Shown in pieces: positions 40,120 through 46,891 of a stretch of 64,000 nucleotides of DNA (position 1 is its first letter; every line of letters begins with the position of its first letter). The stretch is from Parahoeflea alexandrii. Lineage in GTDB: Bacteria > Pseudomonadota > Alphaproteobacteria > Rhizobiales > Rhizobiaceae. Below the pieces are notes generated by a model. It was not told where the DNA came from and did not search any database. It saw nothing but the letters and a program-made list of their open reading frames with translations. The DNA lies in contig NZ_JAAAML010000001.1 in assembly GCF_024105735.1 (NCBI RefSeq), positions 1,683,809 to 1,747,808 on the forward strand, in the 5' to 3' direction. Both the position numbers and the translations under genes were made by a program.

Positions 40120-40266
40120 TCAGCGTGTGCGCAGACCGCGGGCCACGTTGTCGATGTCGAAACGGGTCAGGCCGATGTCGGCGAGGGTCTCGTTGGAAAG
40201 GTTTGCGAGTTCCTGTGCAGTCTGGCGCGATTTCATCCAGTTGCGGGCTCTGCTGAGAATCTTCAT
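40120..40266 (-). CDS. DUF1127 micro-protein 1
   Basis: 48 residues, MKILSRARNWMKSRQTAQEL then the DUF1127 core LANLSNETLADIGLTRFDIDNVARG (about residues 19-43). AGGAG stands eight bases before the ATG. DUF1127 proteins are tiny, Arg-rich and stress- or virulence-linked in alphaproteobacteria; some bind RNA or influence sRNA turnover. It is the first of three tandem copies, each with its own promoter and terminator. The open frame extends upstream past the promoter, but that part is not coding. Confidence 0.92.
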   Translation of the reverse strand: MKILSRARNWMKSRQTAQELANLSNETLADIGLTRFDIDNVARGLRTR

Positions 40267-40329: not shown

Positions 40330-40364
40330 CATATAGGCGATTGCTGCCCATTTGTGCAGCGCAA
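40330..40364 (-). promoter_or_regulatory. promoter with shared box, DUF1127 gene 1
   Basis: On the minus strand: TTGCGCTGCACA (40353-40364), 17 bases, TATATG (40330-40335). The same design precedes the other two DUF1127 genes with the same spacing. The -10 lies about 64 bases before the start codon. Confidence 0.7.
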
Positions 40365-40570: not shown

Positions 40571-40714
40571 TTACTGGCCGGGACGGCGTGCAACGAAGGG
40601 GATGTCGCCGCGGGAGATGCCGAGGTCGTTGAGTTCGCGCTCGGACATGCGGGAGAGTTCGTTGACGGTGTTGCGGTATTCGCGCCAGTCTTTGTAAGCC
40701 TTACGGAAGTTCAT
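40571..40714 (-). CDS. DUF1127 micro-protein 2
   Basis: 47 residues: MNFRKAYKDWREYRNTVNELSRMSERELNDLGISRGDIPFVARRPGQ-type sequence with the DUF1127 core ELSRMSERELNDLGISRGDIPFVAR (about residues 19-43). GAAAGG lies ahead of the ATG. It is closer in sequence to copy 3 than to copy 1. The promoter box is at 40775-40809. Confidence 0.93.
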   Translation of the reverse strand: MNFRKAYKDWREYRNTVNELSRMSERELNDLGISRGDIPFVARRPGQ

Positions 40715-40774: not shown

Positions 40775-40809
40775 GATATAGGTGCAAACGGGTGTTTTGT
40801 GCAGTGCAA
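40775..40809 (-). promoter_or_regulatory. promoter with shared box, DUF1127 gene 2
   Basis: On the minus strand: TTGCACTGCACA (40798-40809), 17 bases, TATATC (40775-40780). A second, weaker copy of the box (9 of 12 bases) lies 37 bases further upstream at 40835-40846, as if a regulator had two sites here. Confidence 0.72.
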
Positions 40810-41011
40810 AATATTGCAAAGGAGCCATGCGGTTTGTGCATTGCGCCTTAACAAACGGTTGTTAATGATCGTTAATTTGCATGGCTTGGAAAATGGCTTG
40901 GCAATCAGTGAGCGCGATCCGTGCCGCTGGGCGCAATGGCAGCGGCTCGAATAAGCGCGCTGACCAGCGGGCTTTAAGGGAGATGATGTTTGGTGGGATG
41001 ATGCAATGCGG

Positions 41012-41152
41012 ACAAAAAAATAACGCCCACCGGGGGAGGAGGATCCGGTGGGCGTCATTTTGGGAGACTGACGCTCGGGAGGAGGATGAACGCCAGTCAC
41101 ATCGAAGCGGCTATTGGGAGGAGGAGGATGCCGCTCCGAATTCCTAAATCTG
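41012..41152 (-). ncRNA. CCUCCUCCC triple-hairpin RNA in the 3' UTR of DUF1127 gene 3 (cuckoo/CcsR-like)
   Basis: Downstream of the third DUF1127 stop, the minus-strand transcript forms three successive hairpins, each with CCUCCUCCC in its loop. Hairpin 1 (41106-41135): AGCGGC/GCCGCU, 18-base loop. Hairpin 2 (41066-41098): GACUGGCG/CGUCAGUC with one G-U pair, 17-base loop. Hairpin 3 (41023-41055): 11 perfect pairs, 11-base loop, then UAUUUUUUU, so it is also the terminator. In Rhodobacter the CcsR RNAs with this motif are processed from the 3' UTR of a DUF1127 gene (RSP_6037/CcaF1), and the wider group is called cuckoo RNAs. The arrangement here fits that class. The loops can pair with Shine-Dalgarno sequences of mRNAs. 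Confidence 0.85.
41014..41055 (-). terminator. terminator carrying the third CCUCCUCCC loop
   Basis: ACGCCCACCGG pairs with CCGGTGGGCGT around an 11-base loop, followed on the minus strand by TA and seven T. It is the strongest terminator in the window, and its loop is the RNA's third motif copy. Confidence 0.9.
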
Positions 41153-41293
41153 TTACAGGGCGCGCCGTGCGGCGAATGGAATATCGCCCCGCGTCATGCC
41201 GATATCGCTCAACTCGCGTTCCGAAAGCCGGTTCAGCTCGACGCAGGTTTCGCGGTACTTCCGCCAGCTGGCGTAGGATTGGATCAGTTTCAT
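41153..41293 (-). CDS. DUF1127 micro-protein 3, host gene of the hairpin RNA
   Basis: 46 residues: MKLIQSYASWRKYRETCVEL followed by the DUF1127 core LNRLSERELSDIGMTRGDIPFAARRAL. The ATG at 41293 is preceded by AAAGGACGAT. A 5' UTR of about 54 bases leads from the promoter at 41354-41388. The mRNA continues 13-15 bases past the stop into the first of three CCUCCUCCC hairpins, so this gene is the counterpart of the Rhodobacter DUF1127 gene that hosts CcsR RNAs. Confidence 0.93.
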   Translation of the reverse strand: MKLIQSYASWRKYRETCVELNRLSERELSDIGMTRGDIPFAARRAL

Positions 41294-41353
41294 GGTCGAT
41301 CGTCCTTTGTCCTGCTGTTGTCCGGTCCACCACCGTGGCGTTCCGATGTTTTG

Positions 41354-41388
41354 AATATAGGGGCATTCAATCGATTTGTGCAGTGCAA
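41354..41388 (-). promoter_or_regulatory. promoter with shared box, DUF1127 gene 3
   Basis: On the minus strand: TTGCACTGCACA (41377-41388), 17 bases, TATATT (41354-41359). Box and spacing are identical to those of gene 2. Confidence 0.72.
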
Positions 41389-41564
41389 TATCGTCATGGA
41401 AGCCATTCCGAGAACGCATAACTGGGTGGTGATCCAGTGTTATTTGCCTCAGAGCTGTGCAATGTGGCCGCAATCAGCGGGCAGTGTGCCTTAAATCTCG
41501 CCGTTGTGCGGTTCGGCCGTTGATGTAATCTCGAAACCGGCTGCTGCAAGGGAAGAATCGCCAG

Positions 41565-45173: not shown

Positions 45174-45313
45174 CGTTTGTGGGCAGCATTTGCCGACGGC
45201 AGACGGATGCCGGCCAGTCCCGTGCCCGGCAATCCATATCGCATCCTGCACCGTAGGTAGGGCAGGCCCGCCGCTGATGGTTGCGGCATTTCTGGCCTGA
45301 GCCGGGAGACCTC

Positions 45314-46891
45314 ATGGTAAAAGACAAAGTACTGAGATTTGTCCTGGGCGATCAGCTGTCGCGCTGGATTTCAAGCCTTGAAGATGCCCGACCCGACACC
45401 GATGTGATCTTCATGGCGGAGGTGATGGCCGAGGCGACTTCGGTCAAACATCACAAGAAGAAGATTGCGTTCCTGTTTTCGGCCATGCGGCACTTCGCCG
45501 AAAATCTCCGGGACGAAGGTTTTACGGTCGACTATCTGTGCCTGGATGCACAGAACAGTCCTGGCGATTTCGGCAGCGCGCTGGCCGAAGCGGTGGAACG
45601 GCATGACGCGGCCCGCGTGGTCATGACGGAGCCGTCCGAAATGCGGGTGCTCGAGGCGGCCGAGAGCTGGCGCGAGGAACTTGACGTCGATCTCGACATC
45701 CTGGCCGATAACCGTTTTCTGGCGAGCCATGAAGACTTCGTCAGCTGGGCGACGAAAGATGATGGCGGTCAGCCGAAATCACTGCGGATGGAGTATTTCT
45801 ACCGCGAGATGCGGCGGCGGACCGGATATCTGATGGACGATGGCGAGCCTACCGGCGGAGAATGGAACTATGACGCCGAGAACCGCAAGTCGCTGCCCGA
45901 TTCGATCAAGGTTCCGAAGCGTCCCGAATTTGCACCCGACGAGACCACGCGCGCAGTGATGGAGCTCGTCGCCGACCGGTTTGACGGGCATTTTGGCGAT
46001 CTCGAACCCTTCGATTATCCGGTGAAGGCCAAGGATGCGAAAGCCTATCTCGACTGGTTCGTGGCCGAAGCGCTTCCCTGTTTCGGCGACTGGCAGGACG
46101 CCATGAAACAGGGCGAGCCGCTGCTGTTTCACAGTCACCTCTCGACGCTGATCAATTGCGGCCTGCTGGACCCGCGTGAGTGTTGTGAAAAGGCCGAGCA
46201 GGCCTATCGGGACGGAGACGCGCCGCTCAACGCGGTCGAAGGCTTCATCCGGCAGATCATTGGCTGGCGCGAATTCATTCGCGGTGTTTACTGGCTGAAG
46301 ATGCCTGACTATGCCAACAGCAATGCGCTGGAGGCGACGCGACCCCTGCCGGGTTTTTTCTGGACCGGCGAAACAGCTATGAACTGCCTGAGCCAGGCGA
46401 TCTCGGAAACCAGATCCAACGCCTATGCCCACCATATCCAGCGGCTGATGGTGATCGGCAATTTCTGCCTGATTGCCGGCATTGATCCGCGCGAGGTCCA
46501 AGAGTGGTTCCTGATCGTCTATTCCGACGCCTATGAATGGGTGGAGATGCCCAATGTGGTGGGCATGGCCCTGTTCGCCGATGGCGGCTTCGTCGCCTCC
46601 AAGCCCTATGCGGCCTCGGGATCCTACATCAACAAGATGAGCGATTATTGTGGTTCCTGCCGGTTCGATGTGAAGCAGAAGAGCGGGGAGAAGGCCTGTC
46701 CGTTCAACTATCTCTACTGGAATTTCCTGTACGAGAACGAGAAGGTTCTGAAGAAGAACCACCGCATGGGACTCATCATGGGGTCGCTCGGCAAGATGAA
46801 GAAGGAACGGCTGGAGGAGGTGCGGACTGATTCCGAACGGTTTTTCGACAGCTCCGAAATGAGGGTATGGGACGAATCCGCGTCCGGTTAG
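45314..46891 (+). CDS. iron-sulfur bacterial cryptochrome/photolyase, (6-4) type (FeS-BCP)
   Basis: 525-residue homologue of Agrobacterium PhrB and Rhodobacter CryB, which repair (6-4) photoproducts and bind FAD, a ribolumazine antenna and a [4Fe-4S] cluster. Four cluster cysteines are visible: C358 (MNCLSQ), C446 and C449 (DYCGSC) and C462 (KACPF); their spacing of 88, 3 and 13 is the same as in Agrobacterium PhrB. His373-His374 (YAHHIQRL) sit where the catalytic His of PhrB is expected. The N-terminal [10 protein letters not shown] block also marks this family. The 3' end overlaps the convergent radC stop by four bases. Confidence 0.95.

Follow-up and report, generated by a model that had tools for sequence, protein, structure and literature searches.

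A three-hairpin ar14 RNA behind a DUF1127 gene in Parahoeflea alexandrii, and a possible mRNA origin of stand-alone ar14 RNAs in core Rhizobiaceae

The RNA element behind DUF1127 gene 3

The window analysed here, a stretch of 64,000 nucleotides from Parahoeflea alexandrii, holds three small DUF1127 genes on its minus strand, all of them matching PF06568. The third lies directly upstream of a structured RNA on the same strand, which is a feature of the CIN1-type layout, and this RNA bears three hairpins:

41153..41293, minus: DUF1127 gene 3 (46 aa; PF06568, 53.5 bits), the upstream partner of the RNA
40571..40714, minus: DUF1127 gene 2 (47 aa; PF06568), without RNA
40120..40266, minus: DUF1127 gene 1 (48 aa; PF06568), without RNA
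41018..41144, minus: ar14 (RF02344) RNA with three CCUCCUCCC hairpins (Rfam covariance-model match)
41102..41139, minus: hairpin 1, with an 18-nt loop including UCCUCCUCCUCCC (predicted fold and genus alignment)
41066..41098, minus: hairpin 2, with an 11-nt loop including CCUCCUCCC (predicted fold and genus alignment)
41017..41061, minus: hairpin 3, with a motif loop and a terminator-like stem entering UUAUUUUUUU (sequence, fold and genus alignment)

The ar14 match is of full length (model positions 1–123) and reaches 101.5 bits (E 1.4e-17), above the gathering cut-off of 58.8. The covariance search that the preliminary description of this DNA had proposed for its cuckoo/CcsR-like RNA behind a DUF1127 gene thus upholds both the family and the layout, the association between DUF1127 and CcsR being known as CIN1 (PMC10253847), a name credited to a 2015 paper. 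The model R1 scores the same unit at 115.9 bits, by construction, since it was built with the window unit. The stop codon of gene 3 ends at 41153, and the Rfam match follows 8 bases further (41144) and stem 1 13 bases further (41139). Read on the plus strand, GGGAGGAGG occurs at 41034–41042, 41077–41085, and 41116–41124, and nowhere else on either strand of the window; at least three matches were obtained in 3 of 100 dinucleotide shuffles of the whole window, which ignore the packing into 91 bases.

The minus strand from 41016 to 41147 is predicted to fold into three hairpins that leave the CCUCCUCCC motif unpaired in every loop, with an energy of −63.3 kcal/mol (z −8.1), and none of 200 shuffles was as stable. 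The three motif-exposing hairpins announced by the preliminary description are therefore all present, as are the differing stems that it named (AGCGGC, GACTGGCG, and ACGCCCACCGG), and genes 1 and 2 indeed lack the motif, no GGGAGGAGG being found behind either. It had also called the last stem a terminator with a seven-U run: the stem, its 11-nt loop, and the seven U of UUAUUUUUUU (41014–41020) are there, and by sequence the hairpin is terminator-like. Its reading of the hairpins as three units in one 3' UTR did not hold, as they form one ordinary three-hairpin ar14 unit, and neither did the suggestion that three is an unusual number, which is in fact the norm of the family. The ar14 members are described with three hairpins, identical loops, and differing stems (PMC10746234, PMC7143759), and the Rhizobiales CCUCCUCCC multi-hairpin family, including SmelA075/NfeR1, goes back to a 2011 description, in which members have three or four hairpins and some are linked to stress (PMC3927594). 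Because this family and the CIN1 link have already been described, the RNA and its DUF1127 partner represent a new instance of a known arrangement; as an RNA, the finding is real and ordinary, with a known family and a known partner.

Within the genus, an ar14 match is found in 18 of 18 genomes, above the cut-off in 17, and 30 of the 38 matches were fetched and read. The DUF1127 stop codon lies 22–27 nt before motif 1 in 17 of the 18 genomes (18 loci), the exception being G128, which is 77% complete. A broad alignment (A1) was made with 51 of 66 three-motif units, 57 being left after redundancy removal and six further ones omitted. RNAalifold detected two-sided changes in 18 of its 23 pairs and recovered hairpins 2 and 3, while hairpin 1 was misaligned because the stems shift by two bases between lineages. 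Covariation was therefore counted in a genus alignment of 17 distinct rows (A2), where 98.4% of cells pair and 7 pairs are changed on both sides, compared with 38–55% of cells and at most one such pair when the partners are slid by 1–3 columns. Hairpin 1 (helix 1) is paired in 98.7% of cells, and hairpin 2 (helix 3) in 100%, with two-sided changes at 4 pairs.

As for the loops, 67 units drawn from many genera were examined (the window and 66 other model matches of at least 72 bits, leaving out the four-hairpin match L032), and 196 of their 201 motif cores are fully unpaired in a hairpin loop, compared with 523 of 4020 (13.0%) after shuffling of the flanks; all three cores are open in 62 of these units, and two in the remaining 5. 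The earlier view that selection acts on the loop, with stems free to change as long as they pair, is borne out by these figures, and the proposed comparison of stems across relatives returned both retained pairing and compensatory changes in the genus. A wider sample, comprising 121 genomes from the order, yielded an ar14 match at E 0.001 in 40 and one above the cut-off in 15.

Several variants of this unit were observed. Six tandem model matches, spaced 137–140 bases, lie behind a single DUF1127 gene in Aurantimonas (L040, 4083–4893); there are four in L054, and three each in L033, L042, and L051. Two genus genomes each hold a stand-alone unit with four successive motif sites (L150 in G124 and L159 in G122), which resembles the four-hairpin RFMSmelA099 form (PMC3927594). 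At the trmFO locus of Brucella rhizosphaerae (L032), DUF1127 is followed by four motif hairpins, and neither the LsrB nor the VtlR motif was found in the upstream region. The genome of the window holds a second, degenerate ar14 copy below the cut-off (L003 4894–5040, minus, contig C9; 42.8 bits), which by eye stands alone behind an ABC-transporter gene and bears two motif loops plus a terminator-like hairpin with the loop CUCCGCCC. Other matches below the cut-off and of comparable length are present in 16 of the 18 genomes of the genus, and ten were read.

The common promoter box and the LsrB motif

All three DUF1127 genes are preceded by the consensus TTGC[AG]CTGCACAA, with CTATAT 15 bases on, and by sequences resembling the binding motif of the LysR-type activator LsrB:

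41355..41360, minus: CTATAT, the -10-like element of the gene 3 promoter (from sequence; predicted start near 41349)
41376..41388, minus: TTGCACTGCACAA box upstream of gene 3 (from sequence)
40797..40809, minus: TTGCACTGCACAA box upstream of gene 2 (from sequence)
40352..40364, minus: TTGCGCTGCACAA box upstream of gene 1 (from sequence)
41405..41418, minus: LsrB-like motif TGCGTTCTCGGAAT upstream of gene 3, with two mismatches to TGCA-N6-GCAT
40827..40840, minus: exact LsrB motif TGCACAAACCGCAT upstream of gene 2

The 13-bp box TTGCRCTGCACAA has 4 sites in the 4.9-Mb genome, 3 of them at the DUF1127 genes, while the reversed pattern has none. The fourth copy (L087, C9:423860) precedes a phasin gene (PF09361), hinting that the box regulator possibly acts on PHB granules too. 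At gene 3, the box stands together with the sigma-70-like CTATAT. In each of the 18 DUF1127-ar14 loci of the genus that were read, the box lies upstream of the ORF, 255–266 nt before the TCCTCCTCCC motif (263 in the window).

TGCA-N6-GCAT has been described as the LsrB motif at -72 to -60 of the NfeR1 promoter, and NfeR1 is activated by LsrB (PMC10746234). Taken together, the window, the loci of the genus, and the relatives (the best 80 of 589) have 79 box sites. Upstream of 44 of them this motif is present with at most one mismatch, at an offset of 30–31 in 43 of the 44, against a background of 1.5%. Exact copies lie upstream of DUF1127 in 23 of 30 DUF1127-ar14 loci and in 16 of 40 other DUF1127 loci, compared with 1.8% of random stretches; in the same 30 loci, three permuted patterns and a spacing of 7 gave 0/30, and a spacing of 5 gave 3/30. 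As exact copies also precede RNA-less DUF1127 genes, the motif marks DUF1127 promoters and not the RNA. Of the 44 upstream regions taken from 28 loci, 22 hold the VtlR consensus GCAT-N3-TG-N3-T, against a background of 3.1%. A single ar15 (AbcR-family) RNA is present in the genome, adjoining a LysR gene and holding an exact LsrB motif at -71, and it is solely by this adjacency that the LysR gene becomes a candidate for LsrB (VtlR). We infer that LsrB may control the window locus, with the two mismatches at gene 3, and likewise two in the LsrB-like motif of gene 1, counting against it.

Layouts of the trmFO-tig locus across Hyphomicrobiales

The neighbours of the window locus include genes for trigger factor, a GDYXXLXY protein, and a DUF2157 protein. 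A gene for a 536-aa deoxyribodipyrimidine photolyase-related protein (PF04244), at 45281–46888 on the plus strand, adjoins that of trigger factor. The layout of this locus was surveyed in Hyphomicrobiales, using the best 80 of the 589 trmFO loci detected. Among these, ar14 is located directly behind a DUF1127 ORF in 30 (29 and one with both layouts), stands without such an ORF in 22, and is missing in 28. The survey included 90 of 96 R1 model matches, leaving out the window's own match, L003, the 5'-cut L048, the weak L039, L045 on the minus strand, and L007 4307; the matches L067 (37.5 bits), L061, L079, and L022 were weak and kept. Among the same best 80 of 589, relatives of the trigger factor, GDYXXLXY, and DUF2157 genes are found in 41, 31, and 29 loci, respectively, in both layouts. 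Since synteny and box are shared by both layouts, many loci correspond in their position, their promoter, and their RNA and differ in whether the ORF is there.

In a TrmFO tree built by a quick method, with SH-aLRT support only and midpoint rooting used for the drawing, the stand-alone loci of core Rhizobiaceae group together: one clade of 29 rows (support 99) takes in 21 of all 22 stand-alone loci, and its other 8 rows hold no ar14. Just outside this clade are the window with two Oricola loci, all of the DUF1127-ar14 layout (support 81), and Pararhizobium haloflavum, which holds both. Two changes of layout are needed on this tree when 'both' is counted as DUF1127-ar14 and loci with none are omitted, and one of them is taken to be a weak Bauldia row.

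The stand-alone copies number 23 (the 22 loci and L035), and 17 of them hold the box, with up to two mismatches, without the ORF. Fifteen of these 17 also hold the LsrB motif (at most one mismatch, offset 30–31), and 12 a CTAT-type -10, an element absent from its expected place in 11 of all 23; no box is found in six (L007, L015, L022, L037, L063, and L067). In 14 stand-alone loci, the distance between box and motif is 102–195 bases, compared with 263 in the window. In a promoter comparison of 14 loci, the identity to the gene 3 promoter outside the box is modest (mean 43–62%). This likeness is on average highest to gene 3 in 12 of the 14, L009 and L035 being slightly nearer to gene 1 promoters. 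No DUF1127 relic was detected in the 14 leaders searched in three frames (best E 0.037), so that the arguments for the proposed loss of the ORF are synteny, the likeness of the promoters, and the tree.

Some of these loci hold two ar14 copies. In the Sinorhizobium/Ensifer loci L006, L027, and L031, the predicted first-copy RNAs are of 222–224 nt and lie 156–157 nt before a second copy of 127–129 nt. In several second copies of Rhizobiaceae, the RNA is immediately preceded by a TAT-rich element, and an LsrB-like motif lies near -70. SmelC398 of S. meliloti is reported to be 217 nt long and to lie 151 nt before SmelC397 (NfeR1, 124 nt) on the same strand (PMC2873474). The fit of the first copies to SmelC398 suggests that the box promoter is in use there, and the equivalent of NfeR1 is probably the second copy, the genus loci read having a single unit at this place.

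From the sequences compared, we infer that the DUF1127-ar14 layout would be the older one at trmFO-tig, and that core Rhizobiaceae would have lost the ORF while keeping the promoter and the RNA. The chances are about even that the ar14 RNAs standing alone at this locus in core Rhizobiaceae (SmelC398, and NfeR1 by tandem duplication) are former DUF1127 mRNAs that kept an LsrB-driven promoter and the 3' RNA, with the genus of the window representing the state before the loss. The common promoter and the history of ORF loss are where the value of this analysis lies, and the data support them without proving them.

Proposed mechanism and comparison with known systems

It is likely, as far as sequence allows a judgement, that an LsrB-type promoter gives rise to a single mRNA for both the DUF1127 protein and a 3' RNA of the ar14/NfeR1 type that blocks Shine-Dalgarno sites, and that the ORF was later lost in core Rhizobiaceae. 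LsrB (VtlR) would drive one transcript of ~335 nt, from the predicted start to the end of hairpin 3, from which the DUF1127 protein would be translated. RNase E would then cut before hairpin 1, perhaps aided by the DUF1127 protein, as CcaF1 for CcsR, at the following site:

41139..41143, minus: GAAUU, candidate RNase E site just upstream of hairpin 1 (match to the RNWUU consensus)

Once freed, the RNA of ~125 nt would block the translation of its target mRNAs, whose Shine-Dalgarno sites of the GGGAGGAG type could pair with each of the three loops. The consensus of RNase E is RNWUU, and RNWTT is present within the first 13 nt in all 18 genus rows and in 35 of the 51 A1 rows, compared with 6.7% of random 13-mers, a conservation that hints at RNase E processing. 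Similarly, CcsR1-4 are processed from the ccaF1 3' UTR (PMC8625941). The binding of RNA by DUF1127 proteins is debated, and YjiS, a DUF1127 protein of Salmonella, is reported to have shown no RNA binding (PMC12501420).

Regarding the targets, the loops of NfeR1 are reported to silence ntrB and transporter mRNAs (PMC10746234, PMC7143759). The pattern GGGAGGAG-N4-10-ATG has 36 sites in the genome (one being the locus's own plus strand), compared with 6 for a reversed control, numbers that reflect complementarity only. Thirty of these sites became loci, and a scan of their 22 ORFs with a minimum length of 100 aa gave 7 solute-binding proteins and 4 AMP-binding enzymes. In a control of 24 loci holding GGGAGG and not GGGAGGAG, the ORFs of this minimum length numbered 15 and comprised 2 solute-binding proteins and four other transporter parts. 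The excess of solute-binding proteins (7/22 versus 2/15) is not significant (Fisher p 0.26) and is therefore not counted as support.

Other explanations can be given for these hairpins. They might work in cis only, as a terminator or 3' stabiliser of the DUF1127 mRNA, with loops that capture the Shine-Dalgarno sites of their own or neighbouring genes and no RNA acting in trans, a role to which the start of the RNA 8 bases past the stop codon and its terminator-like end lend themselves. This is unlikely, since the three loops stay nearly invariant while the stems change, which is more than termination requires, a similar RNA is present with no such ORF before it in 22 of the loci surveyed (the best 80 of 589), and the NfeR1 of S. 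meliloti is trans-acting (PMC10746234). Separate transcription of the RNA, from a promoter of its own within DUF1127 gene 3 and without the protein, is very unlikely. Despite the sigma-70 promoter described for NfeR1 itself (PMC10746234) and the TAT-rich and LsrB-like elements of the second copies mentioned above, the gap of 8 nt between stop codon and RNA is too short for a promoter, and the conserved promoter elements, including the box in all 18 genus loci read, precede the ORF, in a scan that lay outside the ORF itself.

Coding by the repeats on the plus strand, where the GGAGGAGGATG sites would serve as ribosome sites of small ORFs (88–111 aa), is scarcely credible. Such ORFs exist mechanically, and one of these sites appears among the results of the search for Shine-Dalgarno patterns, but this reading was rejected because the ATG abuts the GGAGG run without a spacer at the 41077 and 41116 sites, and because the length differences of loop 1 in the genus are not divisible by three. 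Furthermore, the sequence changes track pairing on the minus strand.

If the ORF was lost as proposed, control of DUF1127 proteins and of NfeR1 by VtlR/LsrB would be one conserved module, and some of the 'small protein' transcripts of the VtlR/LsrB regulon would hide an overlooked trans-acting RNA. This would join two lines of research, LsrB-NfeR1 in rhizobia and VtlR-DUF1127 in other Hyphomicrobiales, and would offer a testable case of a possible route to a stand-alone bacterial small RNA, in which an mRNA with a regulatory 3' UTR sheds its coding part. It also raises the question of whether phenotypes of DUF1127 deletions could partly stem from the loss of the RNA where the 3' UTR is also removed.

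Among the known systems, the ar14 RNA NfeR1 from S. meliloti (Smr14C2, SmelC397) shares with the window RNA three CCUCCUCCC-loop hairpins with variable stems and a terminator-like third hairpin. However, the window RNA follows a DUF1127 ORF, whereas NfeR1 is described with a promoter of its own. The literature search found no paper treating NfeR1 and DUF1127 together, the 2015 cuckoo-family paper, where an earlier mention is possible, lying outside it. SmelC398 (sra38/Sm7) resembles the first copies of L006, L027, and L031 in size and spacing, the two features on which the identification is based; unlike the window, these relatives hold no DUF1127 ORF. In CcaF1-CcsR1-4 from Rhodobacter sphaeroides (CIN1, cuckoo), a DUF1127 ORF likewise holds small RNAs in its 3' UTR (PMC10253847, PMC8625941). 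This likeness concerns the layout, and that system is described with four CcsR and an RpoHI/RpoHII promoter, in contrast to the one three-hairpin unit and LsrB-type promoter predicted here.

On the other hand, the VtlR (LsrB) regulator of Brucella controls AbcR2 and activates three DUF1127 genes (PMC12595884), and in Agrobacterium AbcR1 and atu1667 are under VtlR/LsrB control (PMC7486931). TGCA-N6-GCAT likewise accompanies the DUF1127 genes and the ar15 RNA beside a LysR gene in this genome. Unlike here, where the connection is read from sequence, the available parts of those two papers make no mention of an ar14 RNA behind DUF1127 genes. With the RpoH consensus outside the scan, the closest regulatory parallel was found in the LsrB/VtlR control of NfeR1, AbcR, and DUF1127, and not in the Rhodobacter RpoH promoter.
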